From: Halobellus sp. MBLA0158
GTDB taxonomy: Archaea > Halobacteriota > Halobacteria > Halobacteriales > Haloferacaceae
NCBI RefSeq assembly: GCF_041477585.1
Contig: NZ_JBGNYA010000002.1
Location: forward strand, 62,001-126,000
Length of the DNA stretch: 64,000 nt
Direction: 5' to 3'
The position numbers were made by a program, and so were the translations under genes. Each line of letters opens with the position of its first letter. Position 1 is the first letter of the stretch. This document shows positions 2,937 to 42,658 of the stretch, piece after piece. Below the pieces are notes generated by a model. The model did no database searches, was not told the DNA's origin, and saw only the letters and a list, made by a program, of their open reading frames with translations.

Positions 2937-3229
2937 ACACTTCGATAGAGGGGTGTGTCCGGATGAGACCATCCGAAACACATCGATAGAGGGGTGCCTA
3001 CTGGGACTGACAGCATCTACTGATGAGGGTGAATTACGAAATCGGTCAAGCGGGTAGAAAATCAGCTTATGCAAAAATACTGCATTTCAAGCCCTCTAAG
3101 TGCATATTACATATCGATAGAGGGGTGTTTGGGACACATCACGGCGAAGATCCAGTTATCCCTCAATGTTATTCTATTATCAATTGGGATTTGCTATCAG
3201 ACCCAACATACACTTCGATAGAGGGGTGT
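2937..3229 (+). repeat. Origin-type repeats, left cluster (4 copies)
   Basis: Four forward copies of a 20-bp repeat with consensus ACACATCGATAGAGGGGTGT lie at about 2937-2957, 2978-2996, 3109-3128 and 3210-3229. Variation is mainly in the fourth to sixth bases (ACACTTCG, ACATATCG). A weaker relative may lie at 2901-2922. They fill the gene-free stretch downstream of the orc1 gene. G-rich ends of this kind are a feature of archaeal origin recognition boxes. Binding by the adjacent Orc1 is inference. Confidence 0.8.
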
Positions 3230-3238
3230 CAGGTAAGT

Positions 3239-4717
3239 CTAAGTTTGGTTCCTGATCTGGGCTTTGACGACGGACTGGACCTCGTCTTCAGAGACCATCT
3301 CAAGTCGTGAATCCTCACGAAGCGTTTCCAGAATCGTGTCCGGTCGCTCCGCAAACTGAAACTCCAGAAACATCCCGGAACTGGGGCCGTGGCTCCGTCG
3401 CTCAAAGTCAACAAGTGAATACGTGGTCAATTCTTTCATTTTGTTCACATATGTTTCTTGGTGATACTGATCGGCATCGATAGCCTCGGTGAGGAACTGG
3501 TAGACTCGATATCCCGTCGTACTCCGGGCAGCACCAGTATCAGTTTCGGCTGCGACGGCCGCTGTCGCATAGAGACACAATTTCTTTTGAGTACTGATGC
3601 CGCGAACGACTTCGAGAACGCGGTTCTTTTCGACTTTCGCCTGTGCGGCTCGTACGTGCTCCTCACGGACGCGTGTATCGCCCTCCCGTTCGGCGAGTTC
3701 GCCAGCAACCCGGATCAGATCAATCGCTTTTCGCGCATCCCCGTGTGTCTGGGCGGCAAAGGCGGCTGCGAGCGGGATCACATCGTCATCAACGACGTCT
3801 TCGTAGAATGCATCCTCCCGTCGCCGGAGGATTGATTGTAACTGATTCGCGTCGTAGTCGTCGAAATGAACGTCCTCTGGCGTAAACGAGCTGACTGCAC
3901 GGCTGCCGACGGCGTCCATCATTTTCGTGTCATTCGAGATCGCGACGACAGACACGTGGGCACTCAGTTCGTTGTTTGCGCCGGCGCGAGAGAGTTGATA
4001 CAAGAGTCGGGAGAACGCCGGCTCTTGTTTGTCTCGGCGACCCACAAGCATATCCAGTTCATCGAGGACGAAGACGACGGAATCGAAATTCTCGTTGACG
4101 ATTCGATAGAGTTCGTCCCATTTTTCTTTCGTCGCGACGCCGTGTTTTGGGACCTGGATATCGACGTTCGCCTCATCTGCAGCCTGTTGGACGAGTTCAT
4201 ACACTGCAACGCCGAGCGTATCGAGATCCTGGCAGTTGACTTCGATCGTCCCGAACTGGATATCACGAGAGTCACAGATCCGACTGATGTTGTTACAGAC
4301 GGCCTTCGTAATGAGCGACTTGCCCGTGCCTGAGGGACCATACAGGAACAGGTTCGGCGGTCGATTGTCGCCGAGGGCGACACGGAGCATCTTGGTGACT
4401 TCCTGCAGTTGTTCGTCCCGACCGACGATCCGGTCTTCTTCGACGACATAATTCGGATCTAAAAGGGATCGGTCTCGAATGAGTCCCTCCTCATCGTCGA
4501 ACTCCAGCAGCATATCCTCGATCGACTGTGCCGATTCCTCGGTGGTTGTCGTCGATTCCGAGATGTCCTCAGGGTGGGTCGAATCCGGGAGATCTTCCGA
4601 AACGTCCGATTCAGTAGATTCAGAACGGAAATCGGTGTTCGTGATAGTCTCATCCTCCGGTGTTCTCGAATCAGATCGAGAACGGTCGGAGTCGTCAGTT
4701 CCCATATGGAAGGCCAT
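3239..4717 (-). CDS. orc1: Orc1/Cdc6 replication initiator
   Basis: The protein has 492 residues. After a ~70-residue acidic Ser/Thr/Asp-rich tail comes an AAA+ module with Walker A GPSGTGKS (127-134) and Walker B VFVLDELDML (D219-E220). A C-terminal winged-helix domain follows, covering the last ~120 residues. This is the normal Orc1/Cdc6 order, with a long disordered N-terminus. It binds origin boxes and helps load the MCM helicase. The repeats at 2937-3229 and 4742-5362 surround the gene, as expected for an initiator next to its origin. An alternative ATG lies 12 bases inside (4705). Confidence 0.93.
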   Translation of the reverse strand: MAFHMGTDDSDRSRSDSRTPEDETITNTDFRSESTESDVSEDLPDSTHPEDISESTTTTEESAQSIEDMLLEFDDEEGLIRDRSLLDPNYVVEEDRIVGRDEQLQEVTKMLRVALGDNRPPNLFLYGPSGTGKSLITKAVCNNISRICDSRDIQFGTIEVNCQDLDTLGVAVYELVQQAADEANVDIQVPKHGVATKEKWDELYRIVNENFDSVVFVLDELDMLVGRRDKQEPAFSRLLYQLSRAGANNELSAHVSVVAISNDTKMMDAVGSRAVSSFTPEDVHFDDYDANQLQSILRRREDAFYEDVVDDDVIPLAAAFAAQTHGDARKAIDLIRVAGELAEREGDTRVREEHVRAAQAKVEKNRVLEVVRGISTQKKLCLYATAAVAAETDTGAARSTTGYRVYQFLTEAIDADQYHQETYVNKMKELTTYSLVDFERRSHGPSSGMFLEFQFAERPDTILETLREDSRLEMVSEDEVQSVVKAQIRNQT

Positions 4718-4741
4718 ACAACCAAGTTACAAAAAGATTCC

Positions 4742-5362
4742 CACCCCTATCGAAGTGTGATCATACGCATCAGGTTATGATTCTACGCGAATTCAAAAAT
4801 TCAATCGTTGGTTGAGAATCGTATTCCCAACGTCCGACGAAGTGTTAACTCAGTCGGTGGATACAGACACACACCCCTCTATCGATGTGTTCGCCGTGTC
4901 GATGGGGTGGGAAGGGATACTGGAGAGTATCTTCAGTTCACACTGCCGTTAGCCTTCTTCGCTCGAATTGTACCTACGAGCCGACTAAATCCCCAAACCT
5001 TGAGAAATGAATTTCTTTCTTTTCTTCTAGCTTTTTAGAACACACTCACACACACCTCTATCGATGTGTTCGATGTGTCGGCTTTCTCTCCTCCTAACCG
5101 GTTTCAGTTCTCGTTAGCATAGATTCGCTTTACGGCAAATAGAGCAACGCTACTCGATAATTTCTCCAATTCATTGATGTCGATATCGTTTGTATTCGGT
5201 CAAACACCTCGCGTCCACCTATGGAACACATCGATAGAGGGGTGTCTGTATTTTCGGCTAGCTTCGCTTCTCGAGTCGCGGTTGACTTCTCCACGACTAG
5301 TGGCGTGACCTTTCGGCTCGGTTCCCTGGGGACCAGCACAAAACACATCGATAGAGGTGTGT
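4742..5362. repeat. Origin-type repeats, right cluster (5 copies, orientation switch)
   Basis: Five copies of the same 20-bp repeat lie upstream of orc1. Three are on the minus strand (4742-4759, 4871-4890, 5050-5069), and two are on the plus strand (5226-5245, 5343-5362). The orientation changes between 5069 and 5226. With the left cluster the total is nine. No credible gene lies in 4718-5514. This is the most likely position of the origin itself. Confidence 0.82.
5070..5225. other. Candidate duplex-unwinding region of the origin
   Basis: This 156-bp stretch lies between two oppositely oriented origin repeats and has lower GC than neighbouring genes. It lacks a plausible gene. Archaeal origins often place an AT-rich unwinding element between inverted origin boxes, so this segment, or the AT-rich run at 4960-5045, is the best candidate. 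The assignment rests on position and composition alone. Confidence 0.45.
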
Positions 5363-5477: not shown

Positions 5478-5518
5478 TTAACCAACACAAAACCGATATA
5501 CCCGGAAATGTTGGTTAA
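5478..5518. repeat. 41-bp inverted element, copy 2
   Basis: TTAACCAACA at 5478-5487 and TGTTGGTTAA at 5509-5518 have a spacer of exactly 21 bp, identical in layout to copies at 1534 and 9735. The right arm contains the stop codon of polB (5515-5517), so here the element sits at a gene end rather than in front of a gene. That argues against a simple promoter role for all copies. Confidence 0.75.
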
Positions 5519-7677
5519 CCCTCGTGATTCAGGGTAAAGGCAGTCAGCTTCGTTTTTCGAGTCTCAGCGATCTTCCGCCGGATCTCGCTGCGGCCCCAGC
5601 CAAGCGGTGCCAGCACACTCTCGACAGCTCTGACGAGTTGCGCCTCGTAGTACGACGCATCATACGACTCTATCTCTTCGTGGGCCAACGCGACCCGCTC
5701 TCGCGAGCTTTTCTCGTCATCGACGACTACGTACTCGATGTTCTGTCCCGGGTGGATGGCGAGGTCTTGGTCCCGTGCCCGCTTCAGCGCCGCCACGTTC
5801 CGTGTGTTCTGCGTGTATCCCTCCAGCGGCTTGGAGACACGATTCCGTTCGACGAGCTGCTCGACCGGCACCGTTCCAGCGTGGAGCCGATCGATGGCGT
5901 CCTGAAGACGGTCGAGTACGGCGTCCGGAGATCGAGTCGCGTCGAGCCGTTCGAGACAGTCCCGTTGGACGTCCTCGATGAACGATGGGGTCGAGCGCTG
6001 CCGAGCTTCGATCCCGCGTATCATAAACTCGTCGCCGGCGACCTTCCCAAAGTACTTCGTCAACGCGCCAGCGTCGCTCTCGCGCTGCGGCACGAACGCC
6101 ACCCAGTCGTAGTGAGCCTCGTGTTCGAGGCGGATCTCGACGCGCTCGGTAATCTCCGTCGCGAGCGCCTCGAGGTCCTTGCGGTCCTTGTCGTCGACGT
6201 CGGGATCCGGGGTCACCCAGATGGAGTCAACGATGCCGTGGACGACCCGCCAGCCGCCGGCTTCCAGGCGCTGTTTCGCCGTCAGCAGAATCTCGCGAGC
6301 AAACGCATTGATTGCCTCGTGACACTCGATGCAGCCAAACTTCGCGTTGCTGAACCCCTGGTAGCCGAAGCAGGCGACCAGGATCCATTTCAGCGCGCCC
6401 GACCGCCCCTCAAGCTCCGCCAACCGCTCCTCGTCGGGGTCGTCTCGATCCTTCTCGCGACGGATGGCCGCCTTGATCTCGTCGCGAGCGTCGATGATCG
6501 GCTGGAGGACGTCGACGAGGTAGCCTCGCTCGTCGCAGATCGAGTACCCGAGCCCGGGGACGTCGTCGCGGTCGCTGTGGCAGTCACATCGGATGACGTC
6601 CGGCGAGACGTTCCGGGTACAGATGATGTTCGGGTACAACGAGGAGAAGTCGAGTTCGTGGACGTTTTCGTGGAGGCCGACCTCGGGCGCGAAGATGAAG
6701 CCGCCGCGGTCGGCATCGTGGAGCGTCCCCATCGGCTCGTAGAATTCGTGGCGCCAGGAGTTCCACGGGACGAGGACGCCGCGGTCGTGGGCCTCACAGA
6801 TCTGGATCGCCGTGAGGACGTTCCCGATCGACGCCCACGCGAGCTCCTGGACGGGCTTCTTTGAGCGCGACACGAGGTCGAGGACGCCGTCGAGGTTCGT
6901 CTCCCCGTGGAAGAACGTGTTCGACTCGTCGATGATTGCCCGCCCGGGTACGTTGTACCTCGCCGGCGAGTGGCCGACGCGGCCGTAGCTCGAGTACGTC
7001 GACCGGCTCGCGAGCTGCTGATAATCGACGTCCGGCCACCGACTCAGCGAGAAGTCGTCGACGCCGGCGTCCGTCGCCATCTCGTACAGGGCCGGGACGA
7101 TCTCGCTCGTCGAGCAGACCAGGACATCTGGATCGTGTGCGTCGAGCGCCCCCTGGACGGCGGTCAGGATCTCCATCGGCGAGCCGGTGACGGTGTCGTC
7201 GGCGACGGACAGTTCCTCGTAGACGTCGTTGCTCGTTTCGGTCACCGGGACGCTGAGCCGAAGCGTCGACAGCTCGCTCGCCGGCGTCGGATCGGCGCCG
7301 GTCTCCAGACAGTACCGAAACTCTCGCGAAAAGTCCACGTTGAAACAGGCGAGATCCCCGACTGGATAGGCCGACAGCTGGCGCGCTTGCCGGGCGAGTG
7401 GAGTGACGCGATCGATGTGGGCAACGTCGACTGCGAGAACGGCCTCCTCGTCTCGTCGAAAGCCGGGGCGTCGCGTGACCATCTCGGTCGCGACGACGTC
7501 TGGGTGCTGGTCGTACACTGACTGGAGTGTCGTGAGGTCGAGGTCGGCAGCTGGGTCGCGAGGGGCGACGTAGAAACGCGGGGTGTACTTGTCTCGTTCT
7601 GTTACGACGGCACCGTCGGTGGTCGCCTCCCACTCTAGGACGCGGCCGTCGTCCAGGAAGTCGATTGTGAACGGCAT
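5515..7677 (-). CDS. Family-B DNA polymerase (PolB2-like), probable proofreading-deficient
   Basis: About 720 residues when started at the ATG at 7677 ([11 protein letters not shown]). A GTG 48 bases upstream is possible but lies inside the promoter box. Motif A is [12 protein letters not shown] (about residue 340) and motif B is in the [20 protein letters not shown] segment. Motif C reads HGIVDSIWV, so the usual DTD has lost its first Asp and kept the second. The N-terminal exonuclease region has FNVDF where exo I would have DxE, so proofreading looks lost. A role in repair or translesion synthesis is more likely than bulk replication. Its promoter module is shared with the RecA-like operon at 37.9-39.8 kb. 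Confidence 0.88.
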
Positions 7678-7705
7678 TCCTGTAGACCCAATAGTTGGTA
7701 TTCCG

Positions 7706-7731
7706 GATAACCGATGGCGTGTCACTTCCGG
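7706..7731 (-). promoter_or_regulatory. polB promoter with proximal TTCCGGA box
   Basis: On the minus strand a TTCCGGA-type box (7726-7731) is followed by a conserved GACACGCCATCGG segment and a GTTATC TATA-like element (7706-7711), about 30 bases before the polB ATG. That spacing suits a leaderless transcript. The same arrangement occurs at 9607-9632, 37693-37718 and 39797-39822. The distal tandem boxes of the other copies are missing here, because the remains of another polB copy abut at 7735. Confidence 0.6.
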
Positions 7732-7739
7732 ATTTCAGA

Positions 7740-7868
7740 GAACGATGTTCTTTCTCGCAACCTCCTCGGTCGTGGCGACGACGGATGCTGGTCGTACACC
7801 GACTGGAGGATCGTAAGGTCGGGGTCGGCCTCTGGGGCGTGAGGGAAGACGTAGAAGCGTGGGGTGTA
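7740..7868 (-). pseudogene. polB remnant B, distal part (codons after the insertion)
   Basis: The minus strand from 7868 encodes [19 protein letters not shown] and then a stretch resembling [16 protein letters not shown]. This aligns with polB residues just after RDK. Together with 9483-9572 it rebuilds the first ~65 codons of a second polB copy. Homology stops near 7766, and the fragment abuts the promoter of the intact polB. It is a decayed duplicate split by an insertion element. Confidence 0.82.
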
Positions 7869-7878
7869 TTGACATCCT

Positions 7879-7897
7879 CCCACGGCTGAACCGTGGG
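7879..7897 (-). ncRNA. Right-end hairpin, possible ωRNA guide scaffold
   Basis: CCCACGG and CCGTGGG form a perfect 7-bp stem with the 5-base loop CTGAA, 11 bases from the element boundary at 7868/7869 and just beyond the original tnpB stop. TnpB elements make a right-end RNA here whose 3' end reads into flanking DNA. If expressed, the guide would match the polB remnant from 7868 leftward. Expression is not shown. Confidence 0.5.
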
Positions 7898-7919
7898 ATT
7901 CCTCCGGTGAGGCTGTGGG

Positions 7920-9223
7920 CTATGCCGTCCCCACGGAGGCAAGTTTCCCGTCGCCGGTACTCCGGTATGTGCGCTCCTCGTTGGGACTTGCCCTCTCGGG
8001 AGAGCGTGGTGACTCCGACATTCATGGTCGTCCCACGTGAGGCGCACGGGCCGTGCCATCGACCCTGTCTCGAATTCAGTGCCAGTCTCCCGTTCAAGAA
8101 ACGTTCGTGAGGCGTCGAGATCAGCGTGGCTCTCGTGTCCACACGAACACCGAAACACGTCGCCATAACGCTCTGTTTCCACCTGCTCGCCACACTCGAC
8201 ACAGGTTGCCGTCGTGAACGCCTCTGACCGCTCTTCGACAAGGATTCCGTACTCCTCGGCAGTGTCTTTGAGACGGTCGACAAACGAGCGGTGTGCCCAG
8301 AACTGGTGGGTCTTCTCGTTGACTTCTGGGTGCCAGTGTGTCGAGAGCACGTCAGTAAGGTCGCCCACGTACACCGTTGCTACGCCCTCATCATACAGCC
8401 GTTCCATCAGATCACGACAGAGTGCTTCCTGCGCGTGGTCACGGCGACGCGTTCGCTTACGGTACAGTCGGCGAATCCGCTGACTGCTGTACCGACCCTC
8501 GCGGAGTTTAGATTGTAGACGGGCGATCTCTTCGGTCGTCTCACGGAAGTCAGCGAACAACTCGCGACCCTCGTAGAGGAACCGTTTGCCGGTCGTCGTC
8601 GTACAGGCGACGAAGTTGTTTGCGCCCACATCCAAAGCAGCCGATTCGTCGGCTAATGGTGAATCCCGTTGCGAATCTGGTACTGTGACGGGCTGAAAGG
8701 CTCTGAACGTGTCGCTCACTTCGTCGTACTGTATTTCCAGCTGCCCTTTCTCGCCGTCCCACTTCGGGTTCCCAACAAGTTCCAGACGGAGTCGCTCGTA
8801 GTATCCGAGTCCGTACTTCTCTTTCAGATCTTGCCCTACAGGGATCTCGACTCGACTCCGCTCGCCGAGCTCAAGCGTGTACTGGTCGTTCCGGATAAAC
8901 GTACGTAGCTCACGTCCAGCGTCTTCGCTACCCCAGTAACCGGGCGGAGCGGCATCCTCGCTGTCTTCACGGGCAGCAAAGAACGACTTCCACGCCGACT
9001 TATTCTTGCGGATTACTTGTTGAGCGGTGGCAGAGCCGAGGACACCGACGTACTGTTTCCGGTAGTCGGCGGTGTCCCACACTGACTTGCCATCAAAGAA
9101 CTGTTGGCGACGTTCGTAGTTTAGTTCGTTCCAGAGACTGGCGGAGGCGTCCAACAACTTGCGGAGTAGCCGCTCATCGCCGTCAGTAAGCGGTCTGACC
9201 GCGAAGGTGTTGGTTCGCCTCAC
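7920..9223 (-). pseudogene. tnpB: tnpB, RNA-guided nuclease family, with C-terminal frameshift
   Basis: It starts at a GTG (9223). The body shows the TnpB order: N-terminal [11 protein letters not shown] region, RuvC-like [20 protein letters not shown], a CVEC...CSC zinc finger and [11 protein letters not shown]. The frame breaks near 8019: after WDDHE the sequence reads TGTCGG where TGGTCGG would keep frame. Beyond the break, another frame encodes [20 protein letters not shown] and ends KLASVGTA-stop at 7920, a usual haloarchaeal TnpB ending. So about 33 C-terminal residues are out of frame. The core domains are intact. VYVGDL has Gly where many TnpBs have the RuvC-II Glu. Confidence 0.85.
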
Positions 9224-41629: not shown

Positions 41630-42658
41630 TTAGTTGTTCGTCGAAGTAGCAGGGGGATCTACGATAGAATAGGTCCGGTCCCGGCTGGTGCCCTCGGCTT
41701 CCAGAAGATTGTACTGAGTCATCTTCGAGAGATAGTTCCGAACGGTACGCTGCGTTCGGGGATCGTCAACGGCGTCCGCGTACCGGTCGTGAATCTCGCC
41801 CGGGCTCAGCGGTCCGTGCTCCCGAAGGATGTCGTAGACTGTGCGCTGGTGAGGTGTAAGCGAGTCGAGACTCTTCTGCCGGATCTGTGCCCGGCTGTCG
41901 TCGGCCGCCTCAAGGAGCATATTATCGGTGATCCGGTCTGTATTCGTTCGATCAGCAGTACTCGCCGCCGTCCGCAGGATCCCAATTGCCAGTCGGGCGT
42001 CGCCGGCAGCGGCATCGGCGATTCGATAGAGCTGATCGTCTGTGATGACGTCCTGTTCGAGGCCCCACTCCACGCGGGCGTGCAGGATATCGACGAGCTG
42101 CTCGTTGTGGTACTTGTCCATTCGGACGTGCTCGCTGGACCGCAGCCGACTCACGAGTCGGTCGTCGACACGCCCGAACAACTCTTCCTCGTTGTTGGCG
42201 ATACAGATCACCGCGAACTGCGGGACCGTGTGAAGGTTATAGATCAACCCCGGATCCTCGAGCTGGTCGGCCTCATCGAGGATCACGACCGTCCGGGAGT
42301 CGTCGTACTGCTGTAAGCGATCGATGAGCTCGTCGTGTGGGGTCGACTGGCGATGGATGTCGATCGTCCGTCCCAGATCGTCGAGGATCTGGTAGAGGGC
42401 ACGGAACCGCGTGTAGTTCTGCCAGCAGTTGACGTAGGTCGCCTCGACGTCGAGGACTTCTTCGCGCAGCCGTTCGATGACGAACTTCGAGATACAGGTC
42501 TTCCCGGCTCCACTCGGCCCGGTCACGATCGCGGTATCAGCAGGCTCACCGTTCGTGATCGGTTCGAGGACGCTGGAGAGGTGATTCACTTCCGCGTCGC
42601 GATGCTCGACCTCACGGGGAACGAAGCCGGCACGGAGGACGCGAGCATCACGGATCAT
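41630..42658 (-). CDS. Orc1/Cdc6-family protein (second copy)
   Basis: The protein has 342 residues. AAA+ Walker A is GPSGAGKT (47-54) and Walker B is VVILDEADQL (D128-E129). Sensor and arginine regions and a C-terminal winged helix (TPHQRTVYDILREHGPLSPG) follow. It is shorter than the initiator at 3239-4717 and lacks a long N-terminal tail. No origin-type repeat array surrounds it, so it may be an orphan Orc1 with an auxiliary or regulatory role. The upstream region has weak TTCCGGAA boxes related to the polB/RecA-like modules. Confidence 0.88.
   Translation of the reverse strand: MIRDARVLRAGFVPREVEHRDAEVNHLSSVLEPITNGEPADTAIVTGPSGAGKTCISKFVIERLREEVLDVEATYVNCWQNYTRFRALYQILDDLGRTIDIHRQSTPHDELIDRLQQYDDSRTVVILDEADQLEDPGLIYNLHTVPQFAVICIANNEEELFGRVDDRLVSRLRSSEHVRMDKYHNEQLVDILHARVEWGLEQDVITDDQLYRIADAAAGDARLAIGILRTAASTADRTNTDRITDNMLLEAADDSRAQIRQKSLDSLTPHQRTVYDILREHGPLSPGEIHDRYADAVDDPRTQRTVRNYLSKMTQYNLLEAEGTSRDRTYSIVDPPATSTNN

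Follow-up and report, generated by a model that had tools for sequence, protein, structure and literature searches.

The repeated boxes that surround a single orc1 gene in the archaeon Halobellus sp. MBLA0158 raise the question of whether this locus is a replication origin, to which kind of origin it belongs, and where its duplex would open. The gene lies in a window of 64,000 nucleotides, i.e., the whole stretch of DNA that was analysed, which covers positions 62001-126000 of contig C2 (183,520 bp) in a genome of 3.29 Mb. The second contig of this genome comprises 3,102,550 bases, and contig C2, of about 184 kb, is most likely a plasmid. It is highly probable, on comparative grounds, that the 184-kb contig replicates from this locus in an Orc1-dependent manner, and that the boxes are the origin recognition boxes (ORBs) of the orc1 product. 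The initial annotation of the window had proposed an origin with its cognate Orc1, a proposal which appears well supported by the comparison of relatives.

Eight boxes, each at one mismatch at most from ACACATCGATAGAGGGGTGT, together with a ninth and more divergent box, enclose the orc1 gene as previously described, and both the switch of orientation between 5069 and 5226 and the resulting gap of 156 bp were correctly recognized. None of 100 dinucleotide shuffles yielded a copy of the box, compared to the eight copies at 0-1 mismatch present in the real sequence. When the whole genome was searched with up to three mismatches, eight matches were recovered, all of them inside the orc1 cluster, and an abundance of repeats away from orc1, named beforehand as an argument against an origin, is not observed. 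Repeated G-string ORBs thus occur in inverted orientation in the intergenic DNA beside an orc gene, as in the orc/cdc6-adjacent origins of haloarchaea. The box letters were also searched in the text of the literature, where no relevant match was found. The spacings between boxes cluster near 180, 190 and 201 bp, and a helical phasing of these spacings was considered and rejected, the unique-length tests giving p = 0.43 (failed) and p = 0.026 (marginal).

Table 1. Features of the orc1 locus, in positions of the window.
Feature	Position	Strand	Basis or remark
Downstream ORB, farthest from orc1	2937-2956	+	box search
Downstream ORB	2978-2997	+	box search
Downstream ORB	3109-3128	+	box search
Downstream ORB, just past orc1 stop	3210-3229	+	box search
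orc1/cdc6 initiator gene, 492 aa	3239-4717	-	AAA+, Cdc6 lid, Cdc6_C winged helix; NCBIfam TIGR02928
Promoter-proximal divergent box ACACTTCGATAGGGGTGGGA	4739-4758	-	conserved in relatives
Box 4	4871-4890	-	box search and alignment of relatives
Inverted G-rich degenerate half-ORB GTGTCGATGGGGTGGG, facing the putative unwinding region	4895-4916	+	C-run in gene orientation
Candidate duplex-unwinding element, least stable 50-mer of upstream region	4995-5045	.	computed stability
Purine tract (orc1 sense strand), CTAG inside at 5027-5030	5011-5035	-	alignment of relatives
Box 3, core box	5050-5069	-	box search and alignment of relatives
Half-box ACACATCGA, tandem with box 3	5070-5078	-	in 46/51 loci
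Box 2, outer boundary of invertible core	5226-5245	+	box search and alignment of relatives
Box 1	5343-5362	+	box search

The product of orc1 exhibits the AAA+ domain, the Cdc6 lid and the C-terminal winged helix of an Orc1/Cdc6 initiator, and matches solved archaeal Orc1-DNA structures of related proteins from Sulfolobus and Aeropyrum (2qby, 2.5e-49; 2v1u, 7e-47). Translation probably starts at the ATG of position 4705 (MGTDDSD...) rather than at 4717, because relatives share the corresponding ATG, located about 30 nt after a TATA-like run. The contig contains a second gene of Orc-like type, at about 41906-42094(-), which matches the Cdc6 lid without any Cdc6_C match, and no repeated boxes were found around it. 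An intact family-B DNA polymerase gene, 5515-7725(-), lies about 150 bp beyond box 1 and matches a 717-position model (NCBIfam PRK05761.1-4) from end to end. It is overlapped in another frame by a long open frame, 6794-9223(-), the upper part of which resembles, by eye, a TnpB-type transposon protein. A polymerase-related gene or fragment also occurs near the origin of the relatives L028, L021 and L019, as well as in L066, there on the opposite side. GC skew calculated along the whole contig displays no clear or informative turning point at the orc1 locus.

Proteins with 76-92% identity to this Orc1 are encoded in more than 50 haloarchaeal genomes distributed among many genera. With tblastn, 39 plasmid records were retrieved at an identity of at least 80%, followed by a drop to 67-69% and then to about 50%, and a scan of genome contigs with the same protein gave 56 loci. 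In nearly all loci at an identity of at least 76%, mostly located on plasmids, the same boxes occur in the same layout, which reads in gene orientation: box 1 -, box 2 -, box 3 +, box 4 +, promoter box +, orc1, and then downstream boxes -. The window locus has both features that define the pL131/pHLAC01 plasmid origin family, namely an Orc1 of at least 76% identity and a box of the consensus ACAC[AT]TCGATAGAGG[GT]GTGT; its orthologues on plasmid pL131 of N. pharaonis and on pHLAC01 of H. lacusprofundi share 83-85% identity and carry the same boxes. The orc of pL131, the only one of this plasmid, was already counted as origin-associated in 2012 by Wu et al. (PMC3528665, Table 1), and several plasmids, pL131 and others of 104-474 kb, carry the family Orc1 with no other Orc1 match at 1e-5. 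Because relatives including pL131 possess the same Orc1, boxes and layout, the window locus is, as judged from its sequence, an autonomous ori-orc1 plasmid module of a known and previously predicted kind.

Among the matches listed for 170 genomes belonging to the host's family, most box clusters sit at a family orc; of those located elsewhere, the listed ones that were inspected are for the most part relicts or isolated boxes. On a 3.59-Mb contig (L095, G100:C1:427000-434000), the family orc contains two in-frame stops and the boxes are partly decayed, so that the locus is likely a relict; in another locus (L085, G075:C1:1470000-1480000), all that is left of a family orc is a C-terminal stretch of 42 residues, with four to five downstream boxes after it. 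A third (L086, G089:C4:117000-127000) consists of a complete-looking family core devoid of an Orc of its own, which stands beside a 45%-identical Orc with CAACTCGAAAAAGG-type boxes, i.e., one origin beside another. A displacement of some boxes, 1-2 kb outwards from their usual place, is seen in L027, L031, L032 and L036 and looks like an insertion of DNA within the arrays that left the boxes undamaged.

The box sequences diverge in step with the initiators. The sister Orc family at 67-69% identity is associated with the box AACAAATCGATAGGGGTGTG, and the Orc groups at 50%, 53% and 46% identity with TTACACATCGATGACGGGGGGTG, TTCATTTCGCACACGGGGTGTG and TTACAACTCGAAAACGGGGGGTG, respectively. In the host itself, a chromosomal orc (L098, G000:C1:1866500-1873500) possesses its own repeated boxes, ACCGGAAACGTGGTGTG, and a GGAAAC-type repeat adjoins an orc gene of this genome other than orc1. 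The core of the window box, TCGATAGAGG, differs from this chromosomal GGAAAC core, in agreement with the earlier remark that the repeat is unlike the usual chromosomal type. The suggestion of a distinct Orc1-origin pair accordingly holds with respect to the chromosomal box, but the pair is not a new one, the same box being present in more than 50 relatives. Such pairings are consistent with the specific recognition between Orc and box proposed by Wu et al. (PMC3528665). The differences between the winged helix of the window protein and that of the 67% sister family were considered as possible specificity residues, an idea which was abandoned because they are no denser there than in the AAA+ domain.

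The boxes on both sides of the gene, the roles of which had been left unseparated in the initial annotation, probably serve different purposes, as core origin upstream and as titration array downstream. The promoter box immediately precedes the TATA-like CTTTTTGTAA of orc1 and abuts the TATA-like run in most family loci, which suggests a self-repression of orc1. Downstream of the gene, the four boxes of the window are direct repeats; relatives usually possess two to six direct boxes at this place, and two or more boxes in one orientation occur in 45 of the 52 family loci. This downstream array, found in most relatives, resembles the array oriC2D of Haloarcula hispanica and may likewise titrate Orc1.

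An alignment of the upstream region of 51 relatives distinguishes the intervals separating the boxes. Almost no conserved columns occur between boxes 2 and 3, and conserved blocks are found instead around box 3 and box 4. Past box 3, the tandem half-box is followed by a GT-rich stretch and then by the purine tract (84-88% purine at 20-40 nt), and a C-run, equivalent to an inverted G-string, precedes box 4 in 43 of the 51 loci and lies on the other side in 2. The weakest 50-mer falls within the box 3-4 interval in 37/51 loci, and the stabilities of the box 2-3 and box 3-4 intervals differ with p = 1e-6 (Wilcoxon, relatives treated as independent). In the window, this computed region of low stability between boxes, a feature of the AT-rich unwinding sites of orc/cdc6-adjacent origins, lies between two boxes of equal orientation (3 and 4) and outside the gap 5070-5225. 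Low stability alone cannot identify the site, because the least stable helix in the window is situated elsewhere. The weak duplex is flanked by two inward-facing G-strings, those of box 3 and of the degenerate element at 4895-4916. The opening site is probably the interval 4891-5049, and most likely its part at about 4995-5045.

The candidate unwinding region of the initial annotation, the central gap 5070-5225, was probably misplaced. It is enclosed by inverted boxes, contains 55% AT, and its weakest 50-mer in the window (1.23) is nearly equal to that of the neighbouring interval (1.19). Across relatives, however, the box 3-4 interval is the weaker one and harbours the conserved composite elements, whereas the box 2-3 interval is nearly devoid of conserved columns, so that an opening in the gap is unlikely; this alternative accepts the module as an origin and disputes one detail of it, and its probability is non-additive with those of the other alternatives.

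Two further explanations concern the role of the locus as a whole. The module might be intact but dormant, or a relict, with recombination or a different origin ensuring the replication of the plasmid. Haloarchaea are known to possess dormant origins linked to orc genes (PMC4595724) and the relicts L095, L085 and L086 belong to the very same family, but the orc1 frame of the window is intact, all of its boxes are well kept, and the contig yielded no further Orc accompanied by boxes, which makes this explanation quite improbable. It is still far less credible that the boxes are mainly autoregulatory operators of orc1, with the origin situated elsewhere: a conserved box does abut the TATA-like element of orc1 in most loci, but the upstream boxes extend to 645 bp from the gene and others stand downstream of it, and the weak helix and composite elements of the core are not needed by a promoter.

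Under the preferred interpretation of the locus as an Orc1-dependent plasmid origin, the orc1 product would bind the boxes as ORBs. Orc1 occupying box 3, together with the tandem half-box, and the inverted G-rich half-ORB by box 4 would direct the G-string ends towards the weak duplex, where melting and MCM loading would start at about 4995-5045, with boxes 1, 2 and 4 contributing additional Orc1. Binding at the promoter box would allow Orc1 to repress the transcription of its gene, and a titration of Orc1 by the direct boxes downstream would limit the copy number.

The orientation of the core varies among relatives. Box 3 is reversed in 7 of the 51 (L024, L025, L037, L057, L058, L059 and L070), and in the first six of these the core is inverted as a unit, because the C-run there adjoins box 2; the call for L070 rests on the box orientation and on its tract. 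In a pairwise comparison, L024 matches L032 in the plus sense from box 4 on, but across the core the match is in the minus sense, the box 2 end of L024 matching the box 4 end of L032 at 96%, and the same pattern was obtained for L037 and L048. A further inverted core occurs in G076. On a quick Orc tree, core orientation changes at least six times (L056 and L069 left unscored). These inversions, of which no earlier report was found in the open-access literature, would be most simply explained by recombination between boxes 2 and 4, which are inverted with respect to each other. Such natural inversions show that the core can point in either direction with respect to orc1.

In the 60 nt that follow box 3, no tetramer is more enriched than CTAG (27-fold). 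The genome encodes one PF01555 methyltransferase, with a TSPPY motif, which is probably the orthologue of the CTAG orphan methyltransferase; the enzyme is absent from H. lacusprofundi and has no close match in a Haloquadratum genome, in agreement with PMC5867850. Among the 49 loci scored, CTAG occurs within 45 nt of box 3 in 31/32 enzyme-positive and in 0/17 enzyme-negative loci, and no difference between both groups is seen outside the core. In a second set, the genomes of which overlap the first, nine enzyme-positive loci possess the CTAG and three are devoid of it, versus 0/18 enzyme-negative loci. Two of these exceptions, G090 and G088, display a Halobellus-like core without CTAG, G090 being apparently the already counted genome of L042 and the enzyme match of G088 being partial; the third, G070, lacks a recognisable box 3. 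In numbers of loci the association is strong, but few independent events underlie it, because the enzyme changes about three times on the tree (2-3 independent changes), and the phylogenetically independent pairs, just 2-3, are too few for a test. It is conceivable, as a tentative and rather doubtful idea, that the core is a cassette which stays functional when recombination between the inverted boxes on its flanks turns it over and, at the same time, that the CTAG next to the core box, methylated by the orphan methyltransferase, gates re-initiation, as GATC/SeqA in E. coli. The function of CTAG methylation is disputed for H. volcanii (PMC5867850), and a control of replication by CTAG could be tested on small plasmids because the presence or absence of a core CTAG divides this family in parallel with that of the methyltransferase.

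As a haloarchaeal origin, the locus is an ordinary one, and its use resides in the comparative map obtained from about fifty relatives, which covers the core, the putative unwinding site, the promoter box and the downstream array of one well-conserved plasmid origin. Like the orc/cdc6-adjacent origins of haloarchaea described by Wu et al. in 2012 (PMC3528665), it consists of family-specific G-string ORBs flanking orc1; the layout of the core, its inversion and the position of CTAG do not appear in the main text of that article. With oriC1 of Haloarcula hispanica (PMC3936714), it shares inverted G-string boxes that enclose an AT-rich region containing a G-rich inverted repeat, an element reported to enhance initiation at oriC1, but oriC1 is chromosomal and belongs to another family, and the likeness considered is one of layout. 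The oriC2-cdc6E locus of the same species similarly combines an origin upstream and an ORB array, oriC2D, downstream of the initiator gene. It is chromosomal, and the limitation of initiation by its array is supported by experiment (PMC3936714), whereas titration in the window family is deduced; single co-located ori-cdc6 pairs suffice in Haloarcula hispanica (PMC3936714). Finally, the enrichment of CTAG at the origin and its correlation with the enzyme recall the CTAG clusters reported upstream of haloarchaeal orc1/cdc6, along with an orphan CTAG methyltransferase, by Blow et al. 2016 (PMC4752239), and also a control of the Dam/SeqA type. Unlike these clusters, the CTAG of the window family has a fixed place beside the core box, which is an addition to the findings of Blow et al.
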